Assembly (NCBI GenBank): GCA_019359175.1
Contig: JAHHHU010000004.1
Span: forward strand, 62,001-126,000
Length of the DNA: 64,000 bases
Direction: 5' to 3'
Origin: Phormidium tanganyikae FI6-MK23
GTDB taxonomy: Bacteria > Cyanobacteriota > Cyanobacteriia > Leptolyngbyales > Leptolyngbyaceae
The notes under the pieces were generated by a model. That model saw only the letters and a program-made list of their open reading frames with translations. It made no database searches and was not told where the DNA came from. The translations under genes were made by a program, and so were the position numbers. Each line of letters starts with the position of its first letter. Position 1 is the stretch's first letter. Shown here piece by piece: positions 34,750 through 60,119 of the stretch.

Positions 34750-35652
34750 ATGCGAAGAAACCGACCACGATCGAGACCCACCAGAAACTTACAAGCCGCA
34801 CGATCGCTGCCGCAAGTGGCGGTCTATCACCCCGATAGTCAAATGCTGCATCCACTCCGCTTGGTGAGGGAAATGTGGCGCGATTTATTGATGTCGCGGG
34901 ACTTAGCATGGCAACTGATGCGGCGCGATATTAGCGCGAAGTATCGTCAATCTGTTTTGGGTATTCTTTGGGCATTCTTGCCTGCTTTGATTATGGCAGT
35001 TGGCTTTACTGCTGCTAAAGGAAGCGGTGTCGTCAATATTGGCAATACTGATCTGCCTTACCCGGCTTATATTATGTTCAGCATGACGTTGTGGCAAACG
35101 TTTGTCGAAGCGTTAAATGCACCCGTTCAAGCCGTAGCAACTGCTAAATCAATGCTTTCTCGAATCAACTTTCCGCGTGAAGCATTAATCCTCGCAAAGC
35201 TGGGTGAGATAGGGTTTAACTTTGGCATTAAGTTCGTGTTTATTGTTGCTTTGTTTCTCTGGTTTCAGATTCCCGTGACTTGGAGTGTACTTCTGGCTCC
35301 TGTTGCGCTGATTCACTTGATCGCGTTTGGCACATTTTTAGGATTGCTGTTAGCTCCGATCGGGGCGTTGTATCAAGATGTTTCGATGGGATTAACGCTA
35401 ATCACTGGGCTGTGGCTGTTTATCACGCCTGTGGTGTATCCGATTCCTCAAACTGGGCCTTTTGCGGAGATTGTGAAATTAAATCCGGTTACTCCACTGT
35501 TAGTCACGGTGCGAGAGTTGGCAACGACTGGAATCATTTCCAATCCCACTGGGTTTTGGGTTTGCAGTGCGATCGCGCTTTTTGGCTTACTGTTTGCTTG
35601 GGTCGTTTATCGACTGGCACTCCCGTTTGTTGTTGAGAGGATTAGTTCTTGA
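34750..35652 (+). CDS. wzm: ABC-2 polysaccharide export permease (Wzm type), second copy
   Basis: 300 residues. A basic N-terminus (MRRNRPRSRPTRNLQAAR) precedes the family core RDLAWQLMRRDISAKYRQSV and six membrane spans (LGILWAFLPALIMAVGFTAA, IGFNFGIKFVFIVALFLWF). The C-terminal part has TPVVYPIPQTGPFAEIVKLNPVTP. It is clearly a paralogue of the permease at 23889 but strongly diverged. Paired with the following ATPase gene, whose TTG start overlaps this stop. Confidence 0.92.
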   Translation: MRRNRPRSRPTRNLQAARSLPQVAVYHPDSQMLHPLRLVREMWRDLLMSRDLAWQLMRRDISAKYRQSVLGILWAFLPALIMAVGFTAAKGSGVVNIGNTDLPYPAYIMFSMTLWQTFVEALNAPVQAVATAKSMLSRINFPREALILAKLGEIGFNFGIKFVFIVALFLWFQIPVTWSVLLAPVALIHLIAFGTFLGLLLAPIGALYQDVSMGLTLITGLWLFITPVVYPIPQTGPFAEIVKLNPVTPLLVTVRELATTGIISNPTGFWVCSAIALFGLLFAWVVYRLALPFVVERISS

Positions 35653-36950
35653 AAAGTATGCCTGTCACCGATCAGACTCCTACCGCTTCGACTCCCGCGA
35701 TTCAGTCAGACGTGATCCTCTCTGTCGATGGACTGTCTAAGAAGTTTTGCCGAGACTTGAAGCGATCGCTCTTTTACGGTACGCAAGATATTGCATCAGA
35801 ATTAATCGGCAGACGGCGATCGAGTTCATCGCTGCGTCCGGGTGAGTTTTGGGCATTGCAAGATGTCAACTTTCAGCTTCGACGCGGGGAAGCTTTGGGA
35901 TTAGTCGGCAAAAATGGCAGCGGAAAATCAACGCTGTTGCGGATTATTTCCGGCTTGATCAAGCCAGATCAAGGACGAGTCGAGGTTCACGGTCGCGTTG
36001 CACCTTTAATTGCACTCGGAGCAGGATTCAATCCAATTCTGACTGGGCGAGAAAATATCTACGCAAACATGTCGATTTTGGGATTAACCAAGCAGCAAAT
36101 CGATCGCACGTTTGATCAAGTGCTAGATTTTGCAGAAATTAATGACGCGATCGATGCTCCGGTGCAAAGTTATAGTTCAGGAATGGCAGCAAGATTGGGC
36201 TTTGCCTGCGCGATTCATACCGAACCGGATATTTTGCTGATTGATGAAGTGTTAGCGGTTGGAGATTTGAGATTTCGCGCTAAATGCTACCGCCGACTTT
36301 CAGAACTTCGCGATCGAGGGGTCGCGTTCGTCTTGGTTTCCCATAGTTCAAACTCGATTTTATCGAAATGCGAGACCGCGGTTTACCTGTCGAAAGGCAA
36401 GCTAATGATGGCGGGTGATGCAGTAGCGGTAACGCGGCGTTATGAAAATGATTTGTTTCTAGAAGGCGCACCTCCTGCAACCGGAGAAATTCACCGCCCG
36501 CAGCGATCGACTCAGGAGAGTTCTGGATTAGATATTACCGGAGTCTTTTTTCGCGATCGTAATGCCACTAAAATTGCAACTCCGGTCAGCGGAGAAAAGC
36601 TCGATCTCTGTATTCAGTCGAAAGCGCAGCACTCGATTCCTGAAACGAACATGGTCGTCACGATTCGGGAGCGGGCAGGAGAAGGAGATAAAGTTTTAGT
36701 GCTAAGTACACTACACGATAAAACTCCGATCAGCGTCACTGCTGGAGTCAATGAGCTTCGAGTTGAGCTTCCCTACCTTGGTCTAAAACCTGGCTCATAC
36801 TTACTAGATTTACATATCTATCAGGGAAACTACATTTTGCTCGATTCGATCAAGGAATTTAGCTTTGCAGTAGAAGGAACAGGCAGCATGAGCGAGTGTT
36901 CATTTTTTCAACCCCGATGCTGGACTGCAACGCAGACTAAGCCTGATTAA
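35649..36950 (+). CDS. wzt: ABC polysaccharide export ATPase (Wzt type) with C-terminal domain, second copy
   Basis: 433 residues from the TTG at 35649, chosen because GAGAGG lies 8 bases upstream; the ATG at 35658 would remove three residues. Walker A GKNGSGKSTLLR, signature YSSGMAARLGFACA, Walker B ILLIDEVLAVGD. Residues about 285-420 form a beta-sandwich Wzt C-domain (LDLCIQSKAQHSIPETNMVV, LKPGSYLLDLHIYQGNYIL). That domain has little in common with the one in the first Wzt, so the two pairs probably export different glycans. Confidence 0.92.
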   Translation: MKSMPVTDQTPTASTPAIQSDVILSVDGLSKKFCRDLKRSLFYGTQDIASELIGRRRSSSSLRPGEFWALQDVNFQLRRGEALGLVGKNGSGKSTLLRIISGLIKPDQGRVEVHGRVAPLIALGAGFNPILTGRENIYANMSILGLTKQQIDRTFDQVLDFAEINDAIDAPVQSYSSGMAARLGFACAIHTEPDILLIDEVLAVGDLRFRAKCYRRLSELRDRGVAFVLVSHSSNSILSKCETAVYLSKGKLMMAGDAVAVTRRYENDLFLEGAPPATGEIHRPQRSTQESSGLDITGVFFRDRNATKIATPVSGEKLDLCIQSKAQHSIPETNMVVTIRERAGEGDKVLVLSTLHDKTPISVTAGVNELRVELPYLGLKPGSYLLDLHIYQGNYILLDSIKEFSFAVEGTGSMSECSFFQPRCWTATQTKPD

Positions 36951-38054: not shown

Positions 38055-40211
38055 ATGCTGATTAACTATAGTACTTTCTCAGGCGCGACAGGACTCGCCC
38101 TGAACGGCAATGCGTCGCTAAACAGCGGCGCGCTGCAATTAACCCCCGATGCCTCGCTTCAACGAGGCAGTGCTTTTTGGAATACGCCTTTAACACTGAG
38201 CGGAAACGCATCATTTTCCACGAATTTTCAGCTTCAAATTACGGGTAGTAAAGGGACAAATGGTGGAGACGGCATGACCTTCATGCTGCAAAATAGCAGC
38301 CAAGGTACAACTGCTCTGGGTGGAATTGCTGGGCTATTGGGCTATAGCTCGATCGACAACAGCCTAGCCATCAAGTTTGATACTTGGGCAAACACAGACG
38401 AAGTTAGTAATAACTATGTCGGAGTTAACCTCAACGGTGTGTCCTACGGCGCGGTTGCTGGGGCTGTCGCTCCAGTCGATCTTAACGGTGGCAAAGCGGT
38501 TAACGTTTGGATTGATTACAACGGTCAGACTGATATTCTCTCAGTCTTTGTCGCAGGCGATACGGTGACAGACAAGCCAACGAATCCTCTATTTAGCTAC
38601 GGCGTTGATCTTGCTAGTCGGCTCGGCTCTCAAGCCTTCGTCGGTTTTAGTGCAGCAACGGGAGGGGCATCGAATATTCATCGTGTGACAAAGTGGCAAC
38701 TAGATACTTCAGCGGTGTCTCCTCCTCCGCCCCCGCTGCCCCCACCTCCCACACCTGGGTATTCAACTTCATTTAATTACAGCGATTTCTCTACGATCGA
38801 CGGCATTAAAACAAACGGTAGCACTACCAAATCTGGCAATGCGCTGCGATTGACATCGGATCAACAGTTACAGGCGGGAACTGCCTTTACAACGACTCCG
38901 ATTGATATTTACGGTGATACTTCATTCAACACAAACTTCAAACTCCAGTTTTCGGGAGTTCGAGGAACCAACGGCGGCGATGGCATCACCTTTATGCTGC
39001 AAAATAATGGTGCAGGAGCAAATGCGATCGGCGGCGTAGGTGGCGGATTGGGCTATAACGGCATCACCGACAGCTTGGCGATTAAGTTTGATACTTGGCA
39101 AGGAGCAGGAGAGTTAAGCAACAATTATGTTGCGGTGTTGACGAATGGAGATGGCACTAAAACGTATGACTGGGCTGATCAAAACAACGTGACGTATCGC
39201 GCTCAAGCGCAAGCACCCTTTGATCTTAATGGGAACGGCACCATCTTGAACGCCTGGGTTGACTATAACGGGGTCACGGACAACCTACAGGTCTATCTGT
39301 CGAATACATCGACAAAGCCGACGACCGCCCTCTTTAGCACGAAGATACAACTCTCGAATATTGTGGGATCGCAAGCATTTGTTGGATTTAGCGGGGCGAC
39401 AGGTGGAGCAACCAGCATTCAGGATGTATTGAACTGGAGTTTTTCGTCTTCGACTCCTACTCCTCCCGCTCCTCAGTCTGGAGTCGCTCGCATCCTCGCG
39501 CTCGGAGACTCGATCACACTCGGTGTCACGTCGAAAACCGACGACAAAAATCGAACTGCCATTCCGGGTGGATATCGTCGAGTGTTGTGGAATAAGTTCG
39601 TCAATGCTGGGATTGCGGTCGATTTTGTCGGCAGTGAAACCGATGGAACTTCTGCGAATCCAGCTTATCAGTGGACAAACGGCGGCGATAAGAACAATCA
39701 AGGCATGTCAGGCTGGAGAATCGAAAAAATCATTGCCAATGTGGAGAACTATCTCAAGCGAGAAAAGCCAGATATCATCACGCTGATGATTGGAACGAAC
39801 AATCTGTTTACGGATACTTCGGGAGCGCAGATGCTCAGCAGGCTCAACACTCTGATTGATAAGATTACCGCATTCTCGCCGAATACGAAGGTACTGGTTG
39901 GCTCAATCCCACCTGCTTATTCTGATATCGATCGATTTGCGACTCCTGAACGAAGTCAACAACAGATGCAAATGATTGTTGACTACAACAATGGCATACC
40001 AGGAGTGATCAGCGATGACCGTGCAGCGGGTAAGAAGGTCTACTTTGTCGATATGAGATCGTTAACGCTGAATGATCTTGCGCCGCGCAATGATGACAAT
40101 GGGCTGCATCCTTCGATGGCGGGCTACGACAAGATTGGCACGCTTTGGTACAACGCTCTGCTCGATCCCAACGTCGTCGGAACCGCTGGGAACACGCTCA
40201 AGACCGTATAG
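38055..40211 (+). CDS. Two L-type lectin domains fused to an SGNH/GDSL hydrolase
   Basis: 718 residues. Domain 1 (about 1-215) and domain 2 (about 245-460) are related L-type lectin folds, each with TNGGDG(M/I)TFMLQN, a GLGY-type turn and DSLAIKFDTW followed by SNNYV. A Pro-rich linker (PPPPPLPPPPTPG) and a second (STPTPPAPQSG) join them. The C-terminal SGNH domain has LALGDSITLGVT, MIGTNNLF and DDNGLHPSMAGY. No signal peptide is seen: the lectin begins at residue 1. Probably binds and deacylates a surface glycan; the export route is unclear. Confidence 0.87.
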   Translation: MLINYSTFSGATGLALNGNASLNSGALQLTPDASLQRGSAFWNTPLTLSGNASFSTNFQLQITGSKGTNGGDGMTFMLQNSSQGTTALGGIAGLLGYSSIDNSLAIKFDTWANTDEVSNNYVGVNLNGVSYGAVAGAVAPVDLNGGKAVNVWIDYNGQTDILSVFVAGDTVTDKPTNPLFSYGVDLASRLGSQAFVGFSAATGGASNIHRVTKWQLDTSAVSPPPPPLPPPPTPGYSTSFNYSDFSTIDGIKTNGSTTKSGNALRLTSDQQLQAGTAFTTTPIDIYGDTSFNTNFKLQFSGVRGTNGGDGITFMLQNNGAGANAIGGVGGGLGYNGITDSLAIKFDTWQGAGELSNNYVAVLTNGDGTKTYDWADQNNVTYRAQAQAPFDLNGNGTILNAWVDYNGVTDNLQVYLSNTSTKPTTALFSTKIQLSNIVGSQAFVGFSGATGGATSIQDVLNWSFSSSTPTPPAPQSGVARILALGDSITLGVTSKTDDKNRTAIPGGYRRVLWNKFVNAGIAVDFVGSETDGTSANPAYQWTNGGDKNNQGMSGWRIEKIIANVENYLKREKPDIITLMIGTNNLFTDTSGAQMLSRLNTLIDKITAFSPNTKVLVGSIPPAYSDIDRFATPERSQQQMQMIVDYNNGIPGVISDDRAAGKKVYFVDMRSLTLNDLAPRNDDNGLHPSMAGYDKIGTLWYNALLDPNVVGTAGNTLKTV

Positions 40212-40514: not shown

Positions 40515-41474
40515 ATGAAGACACCTCCGCTTGAGCCAAGAGTCGAAAAAGCGCAGCGCACCTCGAATCACAGTGTTGTTCCTTATGTGATGGCGCTGCG
40601 CCCGCATCAATGGACAAAAAATCTGGTAGTGTTTGCGGCTCCGCTGTTTGCCTTCTCAATCCGTTTCGAGACGATTCTCGCCAGCTTGCTTGCGTTTGCA
40701 CTGTTTTGCTGTGTTTCGAGTAGTTTTTACTTGATCAATGACATTGCCGATGTGAAAGACGATCGCGCTCATCCTGTAAAGTGCAAACGTCCGATCGCTT
40801 CTGGACTCGTCAAGATTCCGATCGCGGTCTTAATGGCAGGGTCGCTGCTCAGTAGTGCTTTGTTTTTTGGATTTCTGCACTCAACCGATTTGGGTTTGAC
40901 GATCGTGAGCTATGCCGCCTTGCAGATGGCATACAATCTTCGACTCAAGCGCATGGTGATCCTCGATGTGATTGCGATCTCAGTGGGGTTTGTATTGCGC
41001 GCTTATGCAGGCGCAAATTCAACGCAGATCAAATTGTCGATTTGGTTTGTGCTGTGTACAGCAATGCTGGCGTTGTTTCTAGGAATTGAAAAACGTAAGG
41101 CAGAGTTGCGGCTCCTGCAACGTAAAGGTGGAAAAACGCGATCGGTGTTACGCAAGTATTCGCTATCGCTACTAACCCGAATGGAAAGTACGGTGGTGAC
41201 AGGAACCGTTTTGACTTATGCCTTGTGGAGTGCCGGACCAAAATTAAGTGGGGCTTCAACACCCTGGATGGTCGCAACCTTACCCTTTGTGCTGTACGGC
41301 GTATTTCGGTATCAACTCCTGAGTGAGTTGACCGACGACGATCCCGATCGACATAGAACTGAGCGACCCGATGAAGTTTTACTCACTGATCTACCCATTT
41401 TGCTCACGGTGCTGTGTTGGGTTGCGACTGTCTTTACGATTTTATTGCTCAAACACAATGACCTGATTCAATAG
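40515..41474 (+). CDS. UbiA-family decaprenyl-phosphate phosphoribosyltransferase-like protein
   Basis: 319 residues from the ATG at 40515. The N-terminal ALRPHQWTKNLVVFAAPLF is the hallmark of the decaprenyl-phosphate phosphoribosyltransferase branch of UbiA. The first Asp-rich motif is NDIADVKDDRAHPVKCKRPI. A second, weaker region is GIEKRKAELRLL, and about nine membrane spans follow the usual pattern. Family members transfer 5-phosphoribose from PRPP to polyprenyl phosphate. First gene of a tight operon to 47210, with a phosphatase gene 27 bp downstream. Confidence 0.85.
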   Translation: MKTPPLEPRVEKAQRTSNHSVVPYVMALRPHQWTKNLVVFAAPLFAFSIRFETILASLLAFALFCCVSSSFYLINDIADVKDDRAHPVKCKRPIASGLVKIPIAVLMAGSLLSSALFFGFLHSTDLGLTIVSYAALQMAYNLRLKRMVILDVIAISVGFVLRAYAGANSTQIKLSIWFVLCTAMLALFLGIEKRKAELRLLQRKGGKTRSVLRKYSLSLLTRMESTVVTGTVLTYALWSAGPKLSGASTPWMVATLPFVLYGVFRYQLLSELTDDDPDRHRTERPDEVLLTDLPILLTVLCWVATVFTILLLKHNDLIQ

Positions 41475-41501
41475 CGCACGAGCGTCAAGGTTTGAAAACA
41501 G

Positions 41502-42086
41502 ATGGCAAAACTTGGATTTTGGCTTGAAGGGATCAGGTGGAAGCTGTTTCATCCCGCCCGATTTTCTAAAAGTTCACTTTCGCTGCCTCACGCCGATATT
41601 TTGGCAGATATTAACTTAAAGATGCTGCACCGCTATGGAATTCGAGGTGTCATTCTGGATTTAGATAACACGATCGTGTCGGAAGACGATCGCTATCTTT
41701 CTCCAGAGGCAGAAGCTTGGATTGAGAACGCAAAACGATCGGCGTTTAAGCTTGTGATCTTGACCAACGGGCATCGCCAAGCTCGAATTCGGTTATGGTC
41801 GGATCGATTGGGAGTCTCAGCGATTCATCCAGCGCGCAAGCCCTTTCCAAAAGCATTCCGTCAAGCCTTGAACAGGATGAAACTAAAACCGCATCAAGTC
41901 GTGGTGATCGGGGATAGTTTTCACACCGATCAAGTCGGGGCGTGGCTCGTCGGTTGTCCGATGATTCAAGTCGCTTCTTTGCCGCATCCGAAGCGATCGT
42001 GGGAGCGGATCATCGGGCGATTTGTGCATCGATCGTATCCGCGCGATCGCCCGCTTTGGACGGTGAACGATGTCGATATCACATAG
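41502..42086 (+). CDS. YqeG-family HAD phosphatase
   Basis: 194 residues. HAD motif I GVILDLDNTIVSEDD (about residue 52), motif II KLVILTNGHR, and motif III/IV VVVIGDSFHTDQVGAW identify the YqeG/GEP4-like class. Eukaryotic GEP4 and plastid relatives dephosphorylate phosphatidylglycerol phosphate, so a lipid-phosphate substrate is plausible. Here it directly follows the UbiA-like gene and precedes a small transporter by 5 bp. It could be the phosphatase for the polyprenyl-linked phosphoribose (inference) or simply the housekeeping PGP phosphatase. Confidence 0.85.
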   Translation: MAKLGFWLEGIRWKLFHPARFSKSSLSLPHADILADINLKMLHRYGIRGVILDLDNTIVSEDDRYLSPEAEAWIENAKRSAFKLVILTNGHRQARIRLWSDRLGVSAIHPARKPFPKAFRQALNRMKLKPHQVVVIGDSFHTDQVGAWLVGCPMIQVASLPHPKRSWERIIGRFVHRSYPRDRPLWTVNDVDIT

Positions 42087-42091
42087 AATAA

Positions 42092-42427
42092 ATGCACTTA
42101 CTGTATTCTGCCTTAATTCTGCTGACGGTTGCACTGAATACCGCTGCCCAACTGCTTCTAAAGCTTGGCTCTGGTCAGACATTGCTCAATCCTTATTTGC
42201 TTGGAGGAGTAGCCTGCTATGGCTTGAGTACAGTTTGTTATGTGGGCATTCTCGGTAAATTTAATGTTTCATTTGCTTATCCACTCCTGATTGGATTGAG
42301 TGTGATTGCAACGACTCTCGCGGGAGCTACTTATCTGCATGAAAAGGTTCCGTTTCTTAGCCTGATCGGAATTGGACTGATGTTAAGTGGCATCGGTGCG
42401 ATCGCGTTTGGCAAAGCCCTAAGTTAG
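42092..42427 (+). CDS. Small EamA/ArnE-like transporter (four membrane spans)
   Basis: 111 residues, four hydrophobic spans: LLYSALILLTVALNTAAQLLL, LLGGVACYGLSTVCYVGIL, FAYPLLIGLSVIATTLAGATY and FLSLIGIGLMLSGIGAIAFG, with YLHEKVPF before the last span, as in SMR/ArnE proteins. ArnE/ArnF flip undecaprenyl-phosphate aminoarabinose, so this protein may flip a lipid-linked sugar to the periplasmic face. It sits 5 bp after the phosphatase gene. Confidence 0.8.
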   Translation: MHLLYSALILLTVALNTAAQLLLKLGSGQTLLNPYLLGGVACYGLSTVCYVGILGKFNVSFAYPLLIGLSVIATTLAGATYLHEKVPFLSLIGIGLMLSGIGAIAFGKALS

Positions 42428-42452
42428 ACCTCATCTATCAAACGACTTGACT

Positions 42453-43268
42453 ATGAAGTGTGTTTCAGAACTCTACGATCGCCATCCCGATAGCGATATC
42501 TATGTGATTGGTACAGGTGCGAGTCTACGAGTCTTTCCGCTCTCGCTGTTAGAAAACAAAATCACAATCGGATTAAACCAAGCTTGGAAAACCGTTCCCG
42601 TTCAATACAGCATCACGATTCACCCTGAGCTGAGTGTTCCGGAGTTTCTTCCGGATCAACCTCCGCATCCAGAGATTAGTTGGATTACCAAGTACGAAAA
42701 AACCAAGAGCCTCGTCACACCTGAGCAGCTTCGATATGCCGAAGAACACTTCTACTTTTTTGAAATGGCTGGGCGGGTAAACACTCAGCCCCCGAATAAA
42801 CCCTCGGATACGGGACGAGTTTTAGACTGGGTGCGCCAACCGACCGACGACAAACTTTATCTCTGGACATCGATCGCCCAAGCAGGCGTGAATTTAGCTG
42901 CGAATTTGGGAGCCAAAAATATCTTTCTGATCGGCTGTGATAACTGTGCGCTGCTCGGCAATAATCACGCACATCAGCAACACACTCGCTGGCGAGATGC
43001 CTCAGCCGATAGCCGTTACCGCGAATATTATGAAGGACTAGCAGAAATGCGTCCAGTGTTGCGAGAGCGGGGAGTAAATTTAGTCAGTCTCACGCCCTTT
43101 ATGAGTTTAGAAGCTCCGAATCAGGATTTTGAACGACTTTGTCAAGAACTCGATCAGCCCACCCGGATCGAAAGTGCCCCCGATATTTCTCCCAAATTGG
43201 ACTATAAGAGCTTTTACGTCAATCGATTCAAGCAGATGGCTCGAAAAATGATTTCAGGTACATCTTGA
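42453..43268 (+). CDS. DUF115/MptE-like protein of unknown function
   Basis: 271 residues from the ATG at 42453 (TTG at 42447 possible). Pattern: SDIYVIGTGASLRVFPLSLL, ITIGLNQAWKTVPVQYSITIHP, and LAANLGAKNIFLIGCDNCALLGNNH. The Rossmann-like first strand with VIGTGAS and the later IGCDN resemble the DUF115/MptE-like sugar- or pterin-binding fold found in glycan and flagellar-glycosylation clusters. Cytoplasmic, with no membrane span. The role is unassigned. In the same operon as the UbiA-like gene. Confidence 0.6.
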   Translation: MKCVSELYDRHPDSDIYVIGTGASLRVFPLSLLENKITIGLNQAWKTVPVQYSITIHPELSVPEFLPDQPPHPEISWITKYEKTKSLVTPEQLRYAEEHFYFFEMAGRVNTQPPNKPSDTGRVLDWVRQPTDDKLYLWTSIAQAGVNLAANLGAKNIFLIGCDNCALLGNNHAHQQHTRWRDASADSRYREYYEGLAEMRPVLRERGVNLVSLTPFMSLEAPNQDFERLCQELDQPTRIESAPDISPKLDYKSFYVNRFKQMARKMISGTS

Positions 43269-43288
43269 GCAGCAGGAAGATACCGAAT

Positions 43289-44551
43289 ATGAAGGTCTTG
43301 AAGATGCCTTTTCTGGCTAAATTTCAAATAAGCCAGACTGTCCGACTAGATATCATCATTGGAGCCGCCCTTGCCGTTTTAATTGGAGTCGGAATTTATC
43401 AAGGGCAACTTCTGCTCGATCCCTCGTTGTTTAGAGAGCAAGGGCAAGATATTTGGTTTGATGCAGATGTTCCGAATGTTTTTCAACTCATGACCGAACG
43501 GCACAACCTGCGCGCACACAGCCGAACAGAACGGCATCCTTTGTTGTCTTTGGTAGTATTTTCAGCAACGTTTATTACGAAGACTGGTTTACGAACTTCC
43601 TCACTGACAGCGGTGCAAATGGTCAATTCTGCGATCGCAGCGCTCTGGGTCGGAACACTCTACACACTGCTTCGGACAATCAGTTGTGTTCGATTAGACT
43701 CGATTATCTTTAGTTTGTTAGGGGCAACGAGTGCTGCTGCGGTATTTGGATTAGTTATTCCAGAAAGCTTTCCTCTAGGTTCACTCACGATCCTCGCAGC
43801 ATTGATGCTTGTAGCTTGGGGGCAGTATCAGCCAGTATCTTCTATTGGATACGTCATAGTTAGCGTGATGACCTTGAGTATCACAGTCACAAACTGGATG
43901 TTTGGGCTGCTTGCCTCGATCGTATTTCACTCCTGGAAACAAGCTCTACAAATCACGACCAATGCCTTTCTGCTCGTTCAAGTTCTATGGTTTGTCCAGA
44001 AGAAGATTTTTCCGAGCGCGCGTTTCTTTTTAGATCAGTCGGGCACTAAGGAGGACACTGTATTCCCTAGCATTTTCTCCGCGTTATCAACGCTTCGATC
44101 TTTCTTCGCGCACAGTTTGGTGATGCCATCGATCCAGAGGATTGACAAACCTGGATTGCCTTACCCGGTTATGTCAGTTCAGACTTCAGTTGCCGGGTCA
44201 GGAAGCGCCTTTGGCGGCATTGCACTGGTTTTATGGCTGCTCGTTTTGGGACTTGGCATTTATACCTTGTTTACGTTGCAGACCCATTCCAAACTTCGAT
44301 TGATTTTAGGGATAACCTTAATTGCTCAGGTTCTACTACATTTGGCGTTTGGATCTGAAACCTTTCTATATTCACTCCACTTTGTGCCGTTGTTGATTGT
44401 CTGTGCTGCGTTGACGACATTAACACGACTTCGCTTGCTATCTTTAACCCTAACCGGAATCCTGGTGCTAGCGCTGATGATTAACAATGGTACGCAATTT
44501 AACCGAGCGATCGTATTTCTAAAATCCCCTGATCTTTTCATAACGCGATGA
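43289..44551 (+). CDS. Polytopic membrane protein of unknown family, tandem paralogue A
   Basis: 420 residues from the ATG at 43289, about ten membrane spans. Motifs shared with the next gene: D(I/V)WF near the N-terminus (QGQDIWFDADV), VIPESFPLGSL, LSITVTNWMFG, GSGSAFGGIALVLW and LHLAFGSETFLYSLHFVPLL. An acidic pair in the first periplasmic loop recalls GT-C enzymes (inference). I cannot name the family. Position after a possible lipid-pentose pathway suggests a periplasmic glycosyltransferase or a polymerase. Confidence 0.65.
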   Translation: MKVLKMPFLAKFQISQTVRLDIIIGAALAVLIGVGIYQGQLLLDPSLFREQGQDIWFDADVPNVFQLMTERHNLRAHSRTERHPLLSLVVFSATFITKTGLRTSSLTAVQMVNSAIAALWVGTLYTLLRTISCVRLDSIIFSLLGATSAAAVFGLVIPESFPLGSLTILAALMLVAWGQYQPVSSIGYVIVSVMTLSITVTNWMFGLLASIVFHSWKQALQITTNAFLLVQVLWFVQKKIFPSARFFLDQSGTKEDTVFPSIFSALSTLRSFFAHSLVMPSIQRIDKPGLPYPVMSVQTSVAGSGSAFGGIALVLWLLVLGLGIYTLFTLQTHSKLRLILGITLIAQVLLHLAFGSETFLYSLHFVPLLIVCAALTTLTRLRLLSLTLTGILVLALMINNGTQFNRAIVFLKSPDLFITR

Positions 44552-44558
44552 GCCTTCC

Positions 44559-45893
44559 ATGAAAGTTAGAGCTATGCGGGCACTCTCACCTGTTTCAATT
44601 GTTACGTATCGTTTGGATCTGATCATCATCACGCTCTTAGCAGTATTGACTAGCATCATTACCTACACGAGCGGTCAAATGATTGATCCGGTTCTATTTC
44701 AGCATTTTACCGAGGATGTTTGGTTTGGATCAGATATTGAGCGGGTGATCTCGAATATGAGTCTCCGTGGTGCACCGAACTACCGAGCAAAAGTTCACCC
44801 ATTATTTACATTGTTAACCTTCCCGATCGTGAAAGGCGTTCGACTAATTACAGGAATGCCTCCTAACACTGCGGTTAGTCTGCTGCTGGCAGGAACAACG
44901 GCGCTTTGGGTTGGGTTACTGTACGCAACACTTCGACTGATGGGATGCCGCCGCTTTGATGCTGCCGTCTTTAGTGTCTTGGCGCTGTCTAGTGCAGCGT
45001 TGATTTTTTGGACAACGGTTCCAGAAACTTATCTATTCGGATCGCTGAGCCTGCTAGTGTGTTTATTTCTAGTCGCACTCGCTCAGATCAAAGTGCTGCC
45101 TGTTTGGAGCTACATTTTGATGAGTATCTTCTCGCTCAGCATCACGACGACAAATTGGATGGTTGGGATTGCTGCGACGGTTGTGAATCACTCGCGTAAA
45201 CGAGCGATCGCGATTACGGGAACGGCACTCGCAATCACGCTGCTGCTGTGGGGAGTACAAAATCGCATTTTTGTGAGTACGACTTTTATTACAGATTTTG
45301 CGGAAGAAACAAACTATCTCTTTCCAAAGACATCAGGTGGTCCCATTCGAGTTTTCTTGGGTTTTTTCTTTCATCCGATGGTAGTGCCATCGCTCCAAGT
45401 CATTCCCAGCACTCGCAATCAGCCTGAGTGGCCGCTGCTTAGTGTTCAGCATTCGCTTCCGGGTTCGGGAAGTTTAGCGGGAGGAATTGCGATCGGGCTG
45501 TGGGTGATATTGCTAGGAATCGGCGCGATCGCGTGTTGGACAGAGAGAAAGAATCTAAAATTGCGGCTTGTCGTCGGGTTCGGATTGCTCGGACAGCTTG
45601 CGTTGCATCTGGTTTACGGTGAAGAAACCTTTCTCTATGCGATTCATCTGATTCCGTTCTTGCTAATCGTTTGTGCAATGGCGACGTTAACGCGCTGGCG
45701 ATCAATGGCGATCGGACTTGCGATGCTGCTGATTGTTTTTGCAGGATGGCATAATCATGATCAGTTTTTTCAAGCGACTGAGTTTCTGAAAAATCGCGGT
45801 CCTTTACGTCAGCAAACGCTAGAAGTGAGATCGAGCCTTCCTCCCGCATCTTTGGTCGGGGTAGGTTTCCAGCATTCTGATATTCACTCATGA
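44559..45893 (+). CDS. Polytopic membrane protein of unknown family, tandem paralogue B
   Basis: 444 residues, the same architecture as the gene just upstream: TEDVWFGSDIER, TVPETYLFGSLSL, LSITTTNWMVG, LPGSGSLAGGIAIGLW and LHLVYGEETFLYAIHLIPFL. By eye the two are about 30-40% identical, so the duplication is old. Seven bp separate them. Same inference for function: a GT-C-like or other membrane glycan enzyme. Confidence 0.68.
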   Translation: MKVRAMRALSPVSIVTYRLDLIIITLLAVLTSIITYTSGQMIDPVLFQHFTEDVWFGSDIERVISNMSLRGAPNYRAKVHPLFTLLTFPIVKGVRLITGMPPNTAVSLLLAGTTALWVGLLYATLRLMGCRRFDAAVFSVLALSSAALIFWTTVPETYLFGSLSLLVCLFLVALAQIKVLPVWSYILMSIFSLSITTTNWMVGIAATVVNHSRKRAIAITGTALAITLLLWGVQNRIFVSTTFITDFAEETNYLFPKTSGGPIRVFLGFFFHPMVVPSLQVIPSTRNQPEWPLLSVQHSLPGSGSLAGGIAIGLWVILLGIGAIACWTERKNLKLRLVVGFGLLGQLALHLVYGEETFLYAIHLIPFLLIVCAMATLTRWRSMAIGLAMLLIVFAGWHNHDQFFQATEFLKNRGPLRQQTLEVRSSLPPASLVGVGFQHSDIHS

Positions 45894-46924
45894 CAATGAT
45901 TTTTGGAAAATTCTGGAAGCGTGGGTTCGCGATTGAGAATCAGCATCAAATTAAATCCGTGCTATTCCAAAGACTGAGCAAGCTGAAAAAACTCCTCCTA
46001 CACCGCTGGCAGTGGATCAACAGTCCTAGATTTGATCTGGTCTTTGTCGGCTATGAAGGCAATAAAGGATGGATTCTAGATGCAATTTGTAAGGAGATTG
46101 CTGCTTACTTTCCAGGAAAGACATACTTTCACTATTCTGGATCGTTTCTGCCGCCTGCAAAAGCGTATTTCTTTTCTCACCACTCGCTTTATCCGACTGC
46201 GATCGCAACGACACCGCAGATTGCAACGGCAACGACCCTGATTTGGTACACACATCCTAAAGAATTAGAGATTAGCACTCAGAAACTAATTTCTGCTCTA
46301 AATCAAGCAACAACGGTGATTTGTACGTGTTCTCGCTATGAAAAATTGCTTCATTCACAAGGTTTAGATCCAAGCAAGACCACATTTATTCTCGGAGCCG
46401 CTGATCCTGAACTGTTTCGACCTCACGCGAGAGCAAATGGGGCAGTTGGGTTTTGCACAGCGTACTATTCGCGCAAAGATCCCGATCGCATTTTGAACAT
46501 TATTCAGGCGATGCCGCATCGATCGTTTATCTTATTAGGAAGAAACTGGGATCAATATGAGCAGTATGAAACATTAAAAAGCTTAGCGAATTTAACTTAT
46601 GTTGAAGCCGCTTATCAAGACTATCCTCTATATTATGCTCAGATGGATGTGTTTGTTTCGGCATCGAAGTTAGAAGGAGGTCCGATTCCCTTGATCGAAA
46701 CGATGATGTGCAATGTGTTTCCGGTTGCAAGTGATACCGGATTTAGCACTGATATTATTCGTCATGGAGAAAATGGATTCATTTTTGATGTTGAAGCATC
46801 GATCGGAGAAATCTGTGCTTACATCGAACAAGCTTTCACAATGGATGTCGATGTTCACACAACCGTAAAGCATCTCAGTTGGCAGAACTTCTCACTTGAT
46901 GTTCAAAAGTTACTCAAGGAGTAG
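45890..46924 (+). CDS. Glycosyltransferase family 4/1 (GT-B)
   Basis: 344 residues. The donor-binding half is recognisable: RANGAVGFCTAYYSRKDPDR, FILLGRNWDQYEQ, DVFVSASKLEGGPIPLIETM with the E-x7-E type motif, and GFSTDIIRHGENGFIF. ATG overlaps the upstream stop by four bases. A truncated second copy of its last third lies at 49353-49670, with a tract of about 181 bp that is nearly identical at the DNA level (46619-46799). Confidence 0.88.
   Translation: MTMIFGKFWKRGFAIENQHQIKSVLFQRLSKLKKLLLHRWQWINSPRFDLVFVGYEGNKGWILDAICKEIAAYFPGKTYFHYSGSFLPPAKAYFFSHHSLYPTAIATTPQIATATTLIWYTHPKELEISTQKLISALNQATTVICTCSRYEKLLHSQGLDPSKTTFILGAADPELFRPHARANGAVGFCTAYYSRKDPDRILNIIQAMPHRSFILLGRNWDQYEQYETLKSLANLTYVEAAYQDYPLYYAQMDVFVSASKLEGGPIPLIETMMCNVFPVASDTGFSTDIIRHGENGFIFDVEASIGEICAYIEQAFTMDVDVHTTVKHLSWQNFSLDVQKLLKE
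46619..46799 (+). repeat. Direct repeat, copy 1 (~181 bp, ~97% identical to 49368-49548)
   Basis: By direct comparison the two tracts differ at five positions. Flanking sequence of the same genes is far less similar. Copy 1 is inside the intact glycosyltransferase gene. Confidence 0.9.
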
Positions 46925-46931
46925 AAAATTT

Positions 46932-47210
46932 ATGTCTTTCTCAAACTCTGAGCCAATTCGAATTTTTATCGGTTCCAGCCCCAGAAATTTGATTGAAGAG
47001 CAGGTTTTTTGCCACACACTGCTAAAACATGCGAGTCAACCGCTTGAAATCTATTCGATCGATGGCCTAACAGGTTCAGCGCAGTTTGGGCAGTCCGTCC
47101 ATCCAGAGTTGGGTGGGATTGATCATCATGATGGGGGTGAAACGGGGCGACATTGGGTTCCACAGATTGTCCTAACAGTTGAGGCGACGAAGCTACTTGT
47201 GAAGAATTGA
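46932..47210 (+). pseudogene. In-frame chimera: GT8-like N-terminus joined to a methyltransferase C-terminus
   Basis: 92 codons. Residues 1 to about 50 (IRIFIGSSPRNLIEEQ, then LEIYSIDGLTGSA) match the start of the GT8-like protein at 49685. Residues about 51-92 (FGQSVHPEL, then HDGGETGRHWVPQIVLTVEA) match the end of the methyltransferase at 52222-52983. The junction is near 47082. The frame is preserved, but no catalytic motif of either enzyme remains, so it is a deletion remnant. It follows the GT gene by 7 bp. Confidence 0.85.
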
Positions 47211-47257: not shown

Positions 47258-49306
47258 ATGAGAAGCACTCTATCGATTGACAACGAAATTAATCAGTCCA
47301 TCTCCAAATCCCATTACCGATCTGAAATTAACGGTTTGAGGGCGATGGCGGTTGTTGCTGTCATTATCAACCACTTCAACAAAAAACTGTTGCCTAGCGG
47401 TTATTTGGGTGTAGACATCTTCTTCCTGATTTCTGGGTTTGTGATTATGTCCTCGGTTTCAGGGCATGCTAGCAGAAACTTGGGCAACTTTCTAGTAGAG
47501 TTTTACATTAGGCGAGTCAAACGATTAGCACCTGCACTGATTTTGTTCGTTCTCACTCAGAGTTCTTTGATTTGTCTATTTGATCCGCTCCCACAGGTTT
47601 CGCTAACAACTGGGATGAAATCCTTATTTGGTCTCTCTAATCTTTATCTGCTGGAGCAGTCTACTGACTACTTCGCAGACTCCACAACGCTGAATGTCTT
47701 TACTCATACCTGGTCGTTGGGAGTAGAACAGCAATTCTATGTTCTGTTCCCGTTTTTGACATGGTTGACTGGTTTCAGTCGTCAAAGTGCCAAGGGAGCT
47801 AGAAATCTGTTTTGGGTAACAGTAGCACTATTGATTGCTTCTCTAATTGGGTTTATTTCTCTCTACTCAAGCAATCAATCTGCGGCTTATTTTTTGATGC
47901 TCACCCGTCTATGGGAAATGAGTGCGGGCTGCTTGTTATTTTTGGGACTACAGCATTCCAATCGATTTATTTGCGGCGTGAAGAATTTGCCGCCTGCGGC
48001 AGTGACGATAGCAATCATTGCTGTGCTGTTCATTCCTCTTCAGTTTGCTGTGTTCTCTACTGTTGCAGTAGTCATGCTATCTGCAATCTTGATTGCTTGT
48101 TTACGTCCTGAAACCCCTAGCTATAACCTCTTTACCCGTCAGAGCATTGTTTACATCGGTCTGATTTCTTATTCTCTGTATCTGTGGCATTGGGGTGTAC
48201 TGTCACTAAGTCGTTGGACGATCGGCATTCACTGGTGGACGGTTCCCTTCCAGGTTGCCGTGATACTGCTGCTTGCGGTCGTTTCCTATCGATATGTTGA
48301 AACACCTCTTCGTCAGGCTCAGTGGTCTGCTGTGCGCTGGCGAAACCTTGCGTACGGGATAGTAGCACTAATCATTGCTGCGCTAGTGATTACGGGTTTA
48401 TCGACGAAGCTTTACAGCAAGTTGTTTTTGGATAAGCCAGCCTTTGCATCAAGAATAGCGGCTATTTCTCCACAAAATGCCTCATGGAATGAAGCAGCTT
48501 GTACCACCGATAGAGCATCATCTCGTGCAATTGGAGTTAACTTTGATCAATGCAATATTTTAGAATCAGGGCGATCGCAACTCGATAAAAAGCATTTATT
48601 TTGGTATGGTGACTCCTACGCTGGGCAACTCTCACTCGTCCTCAGCGTCATCTCTAATGAGGCACAACTCCCGACTAACCTATTTACTGCCCTTGGCTGC
48701 CCAGCGTCTCAATTTGCGTCTACTGCTGGAGAGACAGAAAAGGGGTATTGTTCAGGGGTGTTTAGGAAATATCTTGCCTACTTTTTAGGAAAGAGCAAGG
48801 CAGGGGATGTCCTCGTTTTGAATAACGCGTTCCACTATTGGAAGCCAGAAGATTTCTTGATCGATCCAGAGGGTGGTTTGAACTTTCAGAATGGAACAAC
48901 GTCTTTCAAGCATTACGTTCAAGAAATTACTCAGCTCAGTGATGAACTTAAGCAGAAAGGGCGCAGGCTAGCTTTAGTTTCAGACATTCCAGTACTTTAC
49001 AGAAATCCCAATATTTGCTCATACTGGTTTGCACAAATGAATAACGAGTGTACCTCAGAAGAGCTAATCAACGTCAAAGCAAATGAATATAGGCGAAGTG
49101 TTTCAAACACAATCCAAAGTAATCATCACTTCAATCAGAAGGGGGGATTTTTAGATATTTACACACCAACTAGAGATCTACTTTCATACGCGCCAGACAA
49201 CTACGCTGAAATCTACAGAGATAAGGCACACTTGAGTAAAATAGGCGCGCTTCGCCTAAAGAACAGCATTCTTGCTTTCCTTCGTCAAAATCAGCTATTG
49301 AGCTAG
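47258..49306 (+). CDS. OafA/YrhL-type acyltransferase 3 with C-terminal SGNH domain
   Basis: 682 residues. N-terminal acyltransferase-3 motif SEINGLRAMAVVAVIINHF, then the GYLGVDIFFLISGFVI strand and ten membrane spans. TWSLGVEQQFYVLFP carries a conserved Glu. The C-terminal extracytoplasmic SGNH domain has HLFWYGDSYAGQLS and a late DKAHLSKIGALRL (Asp-x-x-His). Such proteins O-acetylate exported glycans. CGATCG sites look sparser than in neighbours, suggesting later arrival. It lies between the chimera and the truncated GT copy. Confidence 0.92.
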   Translation: MRSTLSIDNEINQSISKSHYRSEINGLRAMAVVAVIINHFNKKLLPSGYLGVDIFFLISGFVIMSSVSGHASRNLGNFLVEFYIRRVKRLAPALILFVLTQSSLICLFDPLPQVSLTTGMKSLFGLSNLYLLEQSTDYFADSTTLNVFTHTWSLGVEQQFYVLFPFLTWLTGFSRQSAKGARNLFWVTVALLIASLIGFISLYSSNQSAAYFLMLTRLWEMSAGCLLFLGLQHSNRFICGVKNLPPAAVTIAIIAVLFIPLQFAVFSTVAVVMLSAILIACLRPETPSYNLFTRQSIVYIGLISYSLYLWHWGVLSLSRWTIGIHWWTVPFQVAVILLLAVVSYRYVETPLRQAQWSAVRWRNLAYGIVALIIAALVITGLSTKLYSKLFLDKPAFASRIAAISPQNASWNEAACTTDRASSRAIGVNFDQCNILESGRSQLDKKHLFWYGDSYAGQLSLVLSVISNEAQLPTNLFTALGCPASQFASTAGETEKGYCSGVFRKYLAYFLGKSKAGDVLVLNNAFHYWKPEDFLIDPEGGLNFQNGTTSFKHYVQEITQLSDELKQKGRRLALVSDIPVLYRNPNICSYWFAQMNNECTSEELINVKANEYRRSVSNTIQSNHHFNQKGGFLDIYTPTRDLLSYAPDNYAEIYRDKAHLSKIGALRLKNSILAFLRQNQLLS

Positions 49307-49334: not shown

Positions 49335-49670
49335 GTGAGTAGAAAAGGTAGTGAAGCAGCTTACCAGGACTATCCTCTATATTATGCTCAGATGGATGTG
49401 TTTGTTTCGGCATCGAAGTTAGGAGGAGGTCCAATTCCCTTGATCGAAGCGATGATGTGCAATGTGTTTCCGGTTGCAAGTGATACCAGATTTAGCACTG
49501 ATATTATTCGTCATGGAGAAAATGGATTCATTTTTGATGTTGAGGCATTGGTCAACACAATTTGTGATCTAATCGCTCAAGCGTTTGATCAGTTGATCTA
49601 CGTTCATGAAACTGTTAAGCATTTAAGCTGGAGAAACTACTCTCTCGCGGTTCAGGTACTCCTTGATTAA
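49335..49670 (+). pseudogene. Truncated glycosyltransferase (C-terminal third only)
   Basis: An open frame of 111 codons. From about residue 7 onward it matches the last third of the GT at 45890 (AAYQDYPLYYAQMDVFVSAS, SDTRFSTDIIRHGENGF, HLSWRNYSLAVQVLL). The first residues and the upstream DNA are unrelated. The nucleotide-sugar half is missing, so it is not an active transferase. It ends 14 bp before the GT8-like gene, the same order as in the intact copy. Confidence 0.85.
49368..49548 (+). repeat. Direct repeat, copy 2 (~181 bp, ~97% identical to 46619-46799)
   Basis: Partner of the tract in the intact glycosyltransferase gene. Identity drops to roughly 60% immediately downstream and to nothing upstream of about 49350. 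Confidence 0.9.
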
Positions 49671-50695: not shown

Positions 50696-52225
50696 GTGTC
50701 TCTTCTCACTGATTGGCAAGAAAATTCGGTTGAAGCACAAGATCTGAGATCGTGGTTAGCAATTTGTCGCTGGAAGAACTATAGCTCAGTCAACACGATT
50801 GATCAGGGAATTGACTATGCTGAGCTAACACGCTCTTTCTTATGGGACAAAGTGCCGAGAGCCATCCGCAAGCAACTTCACCCAAAATCCTTTGAGTTTG
50901 AAGAAAATCTTCTTGCTGCTTCTGACATCCAATCTAATGTTATTATCAGAAAACCTTCTCTTAAACTGAAGGCAAAGCGCTTCTTGCAGCAATCTCAAAC
51001 TTATCGAGATGCTTTATCCATTCGAGCCAATGCGGCACGACATCAACGCCCTATTCTTTATATTCCAATTGCTCATTCCAAACTAACAGCGACTGTAAAG
51101 GGTCTCAGCCAGCAAAAGACGATCGAGATTGTGGCTCCCCGAAATGATTTTTTCAGTCATTTACCGATTCATGTACTGTATCTGTCGAGTGAACACGTCT
51201 TCATTCCAAATTTTGATGCCGTTAATCGTCTGCATCAGGGCACTTTAAAGGGACTCGAAGCACAGGGTATTGAATTACTGAAACGCGATCGCCAAGTTCT
51301 CTTACACCAGCTTCTTCAGCAAAATGCCCATCTACAGCGAGTAAACGCTGAGCTTTCAATCCTGCGTCCTCAAGCAATTCTTGTCTTCGCTGATAACCAC
51401 TATCCGATACAGAATTATGTATTTGCGGCGAAACAACAGTCGATCCCGGTGATTATGTTACAGCATGGACTAGATTGCGAGCACTACTGTTTAGATGAAG
51501 CCTATGCTGATGCCATAGCCGTTTGGGGTAATGCTCGACTTCAGCGATACCAACAGTATTCGATTCGCCAACCTGGTCATATTCAAGTTACAGGCAATCC
51601 AGGGTATGACGCGTTTTGCCTGCCGAAGCACTTAAATCTGGACGGTGAATACTGGCTGTGGACGACTCGACCTCATGCCCCTGAGAAATGCTATGCCCCT
51701 TCTCGTCATCCTGAGGAAGGATTGGCAATCTTAGACGCACTGCTAAGTGAACTACAGCGCTCTCCACACCAACGCTTAATTATCAAGCCACATCCATTAG
51801 ATCGAAGTGAGTTATATCAAGAGAGAATTACAGCAATGGGGCTGTGCGATCGAGTAGAGCTTACTCAAACTGATATCCTAGAGCTTCTTGCTCATGCCAG
51901 TTTAGTGATTGCGGAAGATTCTACGAGCGGACTAGAAGCTATGTTTTTTGGCAAAGTCGTGATTCATGCTCATTTTGCCCAATCTCAACCCGTCATGCCG
52001 TTTGTTCAAGAGGGTGCTGCCCTTCCTGCAACCTCTGCTACCTCGTTACACGCTGCGATTCAGCGCGCTCAACGTCTTACTCCGATCGAGCAGCAGCAGC
52101 TTTTAGAAGGGCAATGGCGCTGCTTGAGCAAACAAGCGGGACTCTGCGATGGTCAGTCGGGTCAACGAGTGATTGATTTTGTAATGGATGTATTGCTCAA
52201 GAAAAATTGGAGGAAGTACGCGTGA
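50696..52225 (+). CDS. GT-B-type surface polysaccharide transferase (capsule synthesis-like)
   Basis: 509 residues from a GTG start. Key patches: VIMLQHGLDCEHYCLDEAYAD, HIQVTGNPGYDAF, LIIKPHPLDRSELYQERI and LVIAEDSTSGLEAMFFGK, the arrangement of QHG, GxPxxD, KPHP and E-D-S-T-S motifs found in capsule/teichoic-acid-like and Kdo-transferase-like GT-B enzymes. The first 200 residues are unassigned. It may add a phosphorylated or acidic sugar, KDO being one candidate (inference). It overlaps the methyltransferase start by four bases. Confidence 0.68.
   Translation: MSLLTDWQENSVEAQDLRSWLAICRWKNYSSVNTIDQGIDYAELTRSFLWDKVPRAIRKQLHPKSFEFEENLLAASDIQSNVIIRKPSLKLKAKRFLQQSQTYRDALSIRANAARHQRPILYIPIAHSKLTATVKGLSQQKTIEIVAPRNDFFSHLPIHVLYLSSEHVFIPNFDAVNRLHQGTLKGLEAQGIELLKRDRQVLLHQLLQQNAHLQRVNAELSILRPQAILVFADNHYPIQNYVFAAKQQSIPVIMLQHGLDCEHYCLDEAYADAIAVWGNARLQRYQQYSIRQPGHIQVTGNPGYDAFCLPKHLNLDGEYWLWTTRPHAPEKCYAPSRHPEEGLAILDALLSELQRSPHQRLIIKPHPLDRSELYQERITAMGLCDRVELTQTDILELLAHASLVIAEDSTSGLEAMFFGKVVIHAHFAQSQPVMPFVQEGAALPATSATSLHAAIQRAQRLTPIEQQQLLEGQWRCLSKQAGLCDGQSGQRVIDFVMDVLLKKNWRKYA
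52209..52213 (+). promoter_or_regulatory. Shine-Dalgarno site deciding the GTG start at 52222
   Basis: GGAGG lies 8 bases before the GTG at 52222, which also overlaps the upstream stop (GTGA). The in-frame TTG at 52207 has no such site. Confidence 0.75.
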
Positions 52226-52983
52226 TTGGATTGCTTAAACTACGAACGAAACAAGCTTTAAAGGTGTATCACGCCAATCCTTTGAATCGAGGAATCGCTT
52301 ATCGACGAGAAGTACAAAAACTCAAACAAGCTGATTTAACAAAGCTCAATTTTGGCTGTGGACATTTTGCGCTAGAAGGATGGACTAATACCGATGGTGG
52401 CGATGGGAAGTTCTGGATCGCTCCCCCTAATCCAAAAGTCATCAAACTGAACGTATGGGATTTTTTACACCATTGTCCAGATCAAGTGGCAGAATTCATC
52501 ATTTCTGAGCAGTTCTTTGAACACTTCGATCGACAAGAAGGACATCGCATGCTCCGCGAGTGGTTTCGCATTCTCAAACCGGGCGGAGTTGTCCGGATAC
52601 AGATGCCAGATTTAGAAAAAGAAGTGCGGCTGTATTTAGGTCAGTTAGAGGGAGTGACTTGGGAGAAAGATTTGCTGCCCCACAAGCTGAGCCACGTTCA
52701 AGGAACTTGTGATCCTTATGGCAAGTTATTGCAGGACGAGCAGTATCTCCCGTCTATGTTGCTCAATAACAGTATGCACATGGACGGACATCGCTTTCTG
52801 TACGACTTTGAAACGATTACTCAATCGCTAACGATGGCAGGATTTTGTGATGTGAAGCGAGAAAAGTTCGGGCAATCCGTTCATTCAGATTTACAGCAAG
52901 TTGATCGTCATGATGGCGGTGACACAGGGCGGCACTGGGTTCCGCAAATTGTTTTAACTGTTGAGGCAACGAAGCCGATTTAA
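52222..52983 (+). CDS. Class I SAM-dependent methyltransferase
   Basis: 253 residues from the GTG at 52222. SAM-binding motif I LTKLNFGCGHFALEGWTNTD, a middle strand QVAEFIISEQFFEHFD, and FRILKPGGVVRIQMPDLEKE are typical of methyltransferases in glycan clusters. The end HDGGDTGRHWVPQIVLTVEA is copied in the chimera at 46932-47210. In some ABC-exported O-antigens, chain-end methylation stops growth and is read by Wzt; whether this enzyme acts so is open. Confidence 0.85.
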   Translation: MIGLLKLRTKQALKVYHANPLNRGIAYRREVQKLKQADLTKLNFGCGHFALEGWTNTDGGDGKFWIAPPNPKVIKLNVWDFLHHCPDQVAEFIISEQFFEHFDRQEGHRMLREWFRILKPGGVVRIQMPDLEKEVRLYLGQLEGVTWEKDLLPHKLSHVQGTCDPYGKLLQDEQYLPSMLLNNSMHMDGHRFLYDFETITQSLTMAGFCDVKREKFGQSVHSDLQQVDRHDGGDTGRHWVPQIVLTVEATKPI

Positions 52984-54139: not shown

Positions 54140-54455
54140 AGCTAATCAACCGATTACGCAGCCTCTCGCTGTGCTTCCGGGAAAATGCCCGAATTTTCAC
54201 CGAGACTTCACTCAAATACAAAATTTACTCGAAATCTACGAAATTTCCCTGAATTGAGCATTGATACCCGTATGGAGAGGTAGTTTAATTCTGTATTTGT
54301 GCTTGGAGTCGAGCTTCGAGGGTCGCTTTTGATCTCAGTTCCTCCTGCCCGTTCTTCTTTCACGACTAAGAAGGCGCTGACAGATTTTGTATGTGCGTTT
54401 AATTTGTTAATCAAAGAATTTATCCTTAACCTGTTGTTTGCTGGAGACTGCCGTT
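54140..54455. other. Intergenic region upstream of kdsD
   Basis: About 315 bp with no gene that I can support. It separates the glycosyltransferase operon from the KDO genes and should hold the kdsD promoter. GGAG at 54443-54446 is the probable ribosome site. No repeats or strong hairpins seen. Confidence 0.5.
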
Positions 54456-60088: not shown

Positions 60089-60119
60089 AGATTGCAGCCA
60101 ACTCTATCCGCAATGCTAA

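Follow-up and report, generated by a model that had tools for sequence, protein, structure and literature searches.

We examined a six-gene cluster in the cyanobacterium Phormidium tanganyikae FI6-MK23 (assembly GCA_019359175.1, contig JAHHHU010000004.1) that probably encodes a pathway for decorating an exported glycan with a lipid-linked pentofuranose. The whole stretch of DNA analysed, hereafter the window, spans 64,000 nucleotides (contig positions 62,001 to 126,000), and positions below are counted from its first letter. Six genes were packed on the + strand within 40515-45893 with intergenic distances of 27 bases or less (27, 5, 25, -4 and 7 bases in order). An initial annotation of this DNA had described a tight co-directional group with one DUF115-like gene among its members, and gene positions, strand and order were all as claimed. 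The genes, with the evidence used to name them, are:

40515-41474, + strand: predicted UbiA-fold polyprenyl-phosphate phosphoribosyltransferase (PPPRS); NF008978, Rv3806c (8j8j) and active-site residues
41502-42086, + strand: YqeG-clade HAD phosphatase, proposed 5-phosphatase of polyprenyl-phosphate-ribose-5-phosphate; TIGR01668, clade and linkage
42092-42427, + strand: SMR/ArnE-like four-span protein, proposed flippase; PF00893
42453-43268, + strand: DUF115/MptE-like protein; weak PF01973 match
43265-44551, + strand: GT-C family protein, copy 1; 39% identity to copy 2 and family profile
44559-45893, + strand: GT-C family protein, copy 2, proposed pentofuranosyltransferase; AlphaFold2 model, GT-C fold and PPPRS co-occurrence

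The cluster and its conservation

The UbiA gene was read from the ATG at 40515; an alternative TTG at 40428 gives a longer frame. The operon limits rest on gene spacing because promoter-like sites (7 vs a shuffled mean of 11.6) and terminator-like sites (8 vs a shuffled mean of 9.7) fell below their shuffled means. An Rfam search of the window returned no match. The DUF115/MptE-like protein scored 24.4 bits on PF01973, under the cut-off of 34.6, and its profile found no informative match in the PDB. It was 74-93% identical to 6 relatives (seven rows) and more conserved than the GT-C proteins, and its gene was also seen near a GT-C gene in loci L111 and L114, both with no UbiA in the flank examined.

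The same gene order was sought in other cyanobacteria and the linkage was conserved. Among 40 stand-alone UbiA loci other than the window's own (L092), a YqeG gene lay within 900 bases downstream in 28, an SMR gene within 2.5 kb in 27, and both were present in 25. The UbiA-YqeG-SMR neighbourhood occurs more often than chance predicts. Judged by GT-C copy 2, the closest named relatives of the window proteins were from Cyanobacteria bacterium FACHB-63 (88%), Leptolyngbya sp. Prado105 (72%) and Pseudanabaenaceae cyanobacterium LEGE 13415 (64%).

The UbiA, YqeG and SMR proteins

On NF008978, the NCBIfam model for decaprenyl-phosphate phosphoribosyltransferase, the window UbiA reached 252 bits, above the cut-off of 207. 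Its scores on two sister models with this name were under their cut-offs (229 bits with a cut-off of 234 and 195 bits with a cut-off of 474), as was the UbiA-family model PRK08238 at 174 bits; the next model scored 43 bits and the 4-hydroxybenzoate model 17 bits. The top PDB match was Rv3806c (8j8j, E 2.3e-44), with 4-hydroxybenzoate octaprenyltransferase at E 0.78, and tblastn against the five other UbiA loci of the genome gave a single 14-residue match at E 5.7. These NCBIfam scores, the Rv3806c match and the tblastn result ruled out a quinone-type prenyltransferase and bear out the initial annotation, which had read the gene as a decaprenyl-phosphoryl-phosphoribose synthase homologue. PMC10994848 names 12 Rv3806c residues at the phosphoribosyl pyrophosphate (PRPP)/Mg site. 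Mapped through the 8j8j alignment, ten of these were kept in the window protein (R22, K28, Y70, N73, D77, K87, R90, Q135, Y138 and K143), with Y157 replaced by Phe and K208 by Ser; D81 of the same motif was also kept, giving 11/13 checked positions. Ten of the mapped positions were identical in 53/53 rows and Q135 was kept in 42/53, the rows being 52 loci plus the query, which repeats the window's own protein. By sequence the window UbiA is a member of the Rv3806c-type PPPRS family, and it would be expected to transfer phosphoribose. PPPRS was found in 50/291 genomes.

The YqeG protein of the operon scored 149 bits on TIGR01668, and the window genome (G000) held two matches over the cut-off, the second on another contig. 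In 18 hand-picked genomes, YqeG copy number was 2-4 in 11/11 with a UbiA-YqeG cluster and exactly 1 in 7/7 others (four without UbiA and three of the kind that carries DprE1). A tree was built from 30 of the 31 YqeG matches, leaving out one with no locus (contig C153 of genome G258). It split all 12 operon-type copies from the 18 others with a branch support of 100/100, a split that may be widened as the stretches were trimmed to the operon profile and the other copies are shorter (111-127 vs 165-183 residues). One row, L169, formed a long branch. Ten of the 12 operon-type copies adjoin UbiA and the other two, both from G258, fit the YqeG-SMR-GT-C loci L134 and L139. YqeG was downstream of UbiA in 28/35 stand-alone loci without DprE1 vs 0/15 loci with DprE1, a comparison that leaves out L081 (a 3-kb contig with a 494-residue frame and no DprE1). 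The genomic copy count and the separate 12-member clade ruled out the housekeeping YqeG. With the housekeeping copy on another contig, the operon clade supported at 100/100 and linkage in 28/40 loci, the phosphatase proposed by the initial annotation is distinct from it. As a separate observation, Cyanobacteria bacterium FACHB-63 (L108, L134 and L139) holds four GT-C copies, two short and two long, and four YqeG copies.

An ordinary prenyltransferase UbiA and a housekeeping YqeG could also have come together by chance, and the five further UbiA-family proteins in the genome lend this some room. Set against the UbiA family scores, the PRPP-site residues, the separate YqeG clade and the conserved linkage, such an accident appears highly improbable.

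The SMR protein scored 28.3 bits on Pfam PF00893 (cut-off 23.7) and its top NCBIfam match was ArnE, under that model's cut-off. Coupling in EmrE depends on Glu14. This place, located by lengthening the EmrE alignment by three residues without gaps, was occupied by Asn (Asn16) in 19/19 aligned family members (19 of the 31 matches), which ruled out that the protein acts as an EmrE-type drug exporter. We infer that it may serve instead as a flippase of lipid-linked ribose.

The GT-C proteins and their long relatives

Neither window GT-C copy matched a Pfam or NCBIfam family at E 0.1, and the family profile found no match among PDB sequences. An AlphaFold2 model of copy 2 had a predicted local distance difference test score (pLDDT) of 88.0 and a predicted template modelling score (pTM) of 0.87. 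Structural comparison gave ALG12 at Z 23.4 (3.2 A, 322 aligned), followed by Pmt1-Pmt2 chain B (21.6), AftB (20.4), OST-A (20.1), ArnT (19.8), PglB (19.6), AftD (18.2), AftA (15.7) and EmbB (15.1). The GT-C-like nature that the initial annotation had assigned to the paralogous membrane proteins is thereby strengthened, and the predicted fold of both, modelled on copy 2, is GT-C. Invariant columns across 37 members include Trp55, Phe56, Asp59, Arg76, Pro81, Arg126, Asn199, Glu356-Thr357-Phe358 and Arg381, and from its place after the first span Asp59 is the candidate catalytic Asp.

The GT-C family was found in 25/291 genomes, and PPPRS was present in 24 of these 25 vs 26 of the 266 genomes without GT-C (Fisher p 3e-20, with kinship ignored). 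Two loci reached only by an iterated profile, L049 and L064, are outside the 25. In 14 of the 24 genomes with both, the GT-C gene was inside the 10 kb fetched around UbiA. A scan from the GT-C side covered 37 loci, using patterns from UbiA-adjacent members and sharing several genomes with the 291-genome set. UbiA was in the examined flank in 18 loci, YqeG and SMR were at a contig edge in 2 more, and DprE1 and DprE2 were in 1 further locus; 30 of the 33 genomes concerned had a PPPRS match. Members outside the cyanobacteria came from Candidatus Jettenia, Phycisphaerae, an Armatimonadetes, a Bdellovibrionales and a Methylibium genome.

These counts bear on a second possibility, that UbiA, YqeG and SMR make and flip lipid-linked ribose and the GT-C pair uses another lipid-linked sugar, sharing only the polysaccharide locus. 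The UbiA-YqeG-SMR trio was present in 25 loci and this GT-C family in just 11 of these within the fetched stretch, and there are GT-C loci without the trio. PPPRS was nonetheless present in nearly every GT-C genome, and in Candidatus Jettenia, of another phylum, a 486-residue UbiA adjoins the GT-C gene; we consider separate roles quite unlikely.

In 20 of the 37 GT-C loci (L112 and 19 others of L108-L144) the GT-C frame was 1,011-1,104 residues long. The L112 protein (9896-13150 of its locus) gave a model of moderate confidence (pLDDT 72.6, pTM 0.52) with a beta domain and a helical barrel beyond the GT-C part. Residues ~450-1084 of the model resembled the GH78 rhamnosidase 2okx (Z 24.9, 4.2 A, 367 aligned), a GH65 glucosidase (22.6), the bacterial glucoamylase 1lf6 (22.1) and cellobiose phosphorylase (21.6), suggesting a glycosidase-like C-terminal part folded like GH78, GH65, GH15 and GH94 enzymes. 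Traces of Pfam GH15 were seen in 9/19 long relatives (best E 0.0024, the single listed score being under the cut-off), DUF6080 was touched by 4/19 (best E 2e-6), and the long-form profile gave weak PDB matches to a mitochondrial transcription factor at E 0.07 or worse. The C-terminal profile matched 18/291 genomes, 16 of them within frames of at least 1,013 residues. The other two were a 49-residue stretch in G061 and a 585-residue frame near a contig start in G253, which is a fragment of the long-form C-terminal part in a genome with no PPPRS match at 1e-30. The profile search found no such domain in the window genome, which has short GT-C copies only.

Our tentative proposal, at somewhat less than even odds, is that these proteins form a new glycosyltransferase family of cyanobacteria and a few other phyla, with lipid-linked pentofuranose as its donor. 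The widespread and perhaps ancestral form of this family would join a GT-C part to an extracytoplasmic (alpha/alpha)6 glycosidase/phosphorylase-fold domain in a protein of ~1,010-1,130 residues. If true, one long protein could both attach pentofuranose to a chain and then trim, sense or remodel it.

The sugar, the acceptor glycan and related pathways

DprE1 was found in 15/291 genomes, all within the 50 PPPRS carriers, and at E 1e-30 none was found in the other 35 carriers, the window genome included. The DprE1 and DprE2 profiles had no match within the window, and one weak ALO-domain match was present in the window genome (contig C50, 27.6 bits). A representative DprE1 scored 401 bits on the DprE1 model (cut-off 500) and the SDR adjoining it 204 bits on the DprE2 model (cut-off 250) and 363 bits on another SDR model (cut-off 267). 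The search of the window genome for DprE1, with the two profiles on the window, ruled out a local DprE1/DprE2 route. Ribose is the simplest product because the search of the window genome turned up no DprE1, the enzyme that opens the way to arabinose, and the preference of the initial annotation for ribofuranose, based on the window, gains from this genome-wide result. The YqeG and/or SMR outfit was never mixed with the DprE1/DprE2 outfit in 50 of the 51 other loci, 5 of which have neither; the 51st, the cut contig L081, is outside this count. Genome G015 holds both outfits apart, with UbiA-YqeG-SMR on C16 and a 507-residue UbiA with DprE1 on C3 (loci L059 and L091).

The same route could still end in another sugar if the lipid-linked ribose were epimerised before transfer by an enzyme encoded elsewhere, giving arabinofuranose, or xylofuranose as in Citrobacter youngae O2. 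There the xylose requires one SDR epimerase only, ORF13 (PMC11127046). SDR epimerase-like genes were present in 10 of the 52 fetched loci, and the genome-wide search that returned no DprE1 was for DprE1 and not for DprE2 or ORF13-like genes. The window has 53 open reading frames of at least 150 residues; no SDR was found among the 38 of these scanned with Pfam, and with the DprE1 and DprE2 negatives this makes an epimerised sugar rather unlikely.

Several observations weigh against a dedicated ribofuranose pathway. The loci compared for YqeG linkage are not independent, with 9/15 of the DprE1 loci coming from one genus, and five stand-alone UbiA loci (L055, L067, L073, L074 and L076) lack any expected downstream partner. 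Foldseek alone gave one PDB match to the copy 2 model at E <=0.001, a Pmt4. G105 carries a long-form GT-C with no PPPRS match at 1e-30, 10 of the 24 genomes with both have the GT-C gene beyond the 10 kb fetched around UbiA, and 16/37 GT-C loci have no UbiA, YqeG, SMR or DprE in the flank examined. The GT-C family also stands beside DprE1 in two loci (L071/L123 of one genome, and L120), and because of this the family alone does not fix the sugar; it may accept more than one pentose, by analogy with ORF12 of C. youngae (PMC11127046).

With these points counted, we put the probability at about 0.75 that the cluster decorates a glycan with a lipid-linked pentofuranose, of which ribofuranose is the likeliest. 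This reading is supported because the UbiA family and its PRPP-site residues, the YqeG clade, the linkage, the GT-C fold, the co-occurrence and the failure to find DprE1 all point the same way and a pathway of like design operates in C. youngae, and the lipid-linked pentose mechanism of the initial annotation holds up on the same evidence. In the proposed pathway the UbiA PPPRS would act first, making polyprenyl-phosphate-ribose-5-phosphate from PRPP, and the YqeG-clade phosphatase would take off the 5-phosphate. The SMR/ArnE-like protein would flip polyprenyl-phosphate-ribose across the membrane, and one or both GT-C enzymes would transfer ribose to a glycan outside the cytoplasmic membrane. 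The acceptor would be made by the same locus and exported by an ATP-binding cassette (ABC) transporter, perhaps with 3-deoxy-D-manno-octulosonic acid (Kdo). The neighbouring genes are:

23889-25982: second ABC-2 exporter (context)
34750-36950, + strand: ABC-2 polysaccharide exporter, membrane protein and ATPase with a Wzt_C-like tail under cut-off (context)
38055-40211, + strand: two legume-lectin domains and an SGNH hydrolase; Pfam, linked to the set in 5 loci
45890-46924, + strand: GT4 glycosyltransferase; PF00534 over cut-off, linked to the set in 5 loci
54438-55442, + strand: KdsD; NCBIfam over cut-off
57672-58424, + strand: KdsB; NCBIfam over cut-off
60132-60959, + strand: KdsA; NCBIfam over cut-off
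60956-61504, + strand: KdsC; NCBIfam over cut-off

The GT4 gene overlaps GT-C copy 2 by 4 bases. It and the lectin/SGNH gene accompany the cluster in L066, L068, L069, L075 and the window itself; in the four same-genus loci the order matches that of the window, the lectin/SGNH gene preceding the set and the GT4 gene following it, except that L068 and L075 lack a YqeG or SMR gene. With the KdsA-D homologues at 54438-61504, this cyanobacterial polysaccharide locus has a full set of genes for CMP-Kdo, and the window also holds several glycosyltransferase genes. A Kdo-containing, ABC-exported polysaccharide would be a natural candidate acceptor. Nostoc commune slime contains ribose, a point for which no supporting paper was found in the open-access library searched.

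Repeats were also observed in this region. Through a 234-base direct repeat (90%) at 46603-46836 and 49352-49585, the 3' part of the GT4 gene is present on either side of an acyltransferase-SGNH gene (47258-49306), and by eye the GT8 gene, which begins at 49685, seems to have its start repeated near 46933. At 47069-47205 and the end of 52207-52983, the translations of unrelated open reading frames share a stretch ending GRHWVPQIVLTVEATK, which by eye resembles a small repeated element.

The initial annotation had taken the cluster for an undescribed system, and this does not stand, as the same kind of pathway was published in 2024 for C. youngae O1/O2. That pentofuranose pathway (ORF15, ORF14 and ORF12, the last being GT136) was shown biochemically, and in O1 it decorates an ABC-exported polysaccharide (PMC11127046). 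Both sets have a UbiA-fold PPPRS, a HAD phosphatase, an EmrE/ArnE-like four-span flippase and a GT-C enzyme. In both, the locus also encodes an ABC polysaccharide exporter, and there is no DprE pair for ribose. In the window these four components are encoded together with the phosphatase unfused to UbiA, as a separate YqeG-clade protein, whereas in C. youngae ORF15 carries the phosphatase as its N-terminal domain. Long UbiA frames, 10 of 11 of which accompany DprE1 (nine of these ten from one genus), probably carry a HAD domain too, judging from their length, PRK08238 and ORF15. The window set further differs in its cyanobacterial host and in having two GT-C copies of a family without a name. 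The stand-alone YqeG-clade phosphatase, the nameless duplicated GT-C family, the cyanobacterial host and the glycosidase-like fusions in relatives set the cluster apart from the Citrobacter system. No paper on such a pathway in cyanobacteria was found in the open-access library searched, and a word search of the main text of PMC11127046 found no cyanobacterial example.

Other known systems were less similar. The mycobacterial arabinan pathway (Rv3806c, Rv3807c, DprE1/DprE2, Rv3789 and Emb/Aft) has the same first enzyme and, like the window set, a last enzyme of GT-C fold. In the window genome, however, no DprE1 was found, and the set has another phosphatase type and an ArnE-like flippase; Rv3807c is unrelated to HAD phosphatases (PMC11127046). 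The gPRT-PRP ribofuranosyltransferases of the same source share PRPP-derived ribofuranose and a HAD phosphatase but are described there as cytoplasmic, without lipid-linked ribose or GT-C. ArnT/ArnE-F lipid A modification has a small SMR-like flippase and the GT-C fold, but involves another sugar and no PPPRS.

From this analysis ribofuranose is expected in cyanobacterial surface glycans, and candidate enzymes for it can be named, among them a candidate stand-alone phosphatase for polyprenyl-phosphate-ribose-5-phosphate. The window GT-C proteins, with no library match and no solved relative by sequence, are candidates for a new glycosyltransferase family, and the fusion to a glycosidase-like domain in their relatives raises the question of coupled synthesis and trimming. 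Given outfits that do not mix, the identity of the sugar may be readable from gene content.

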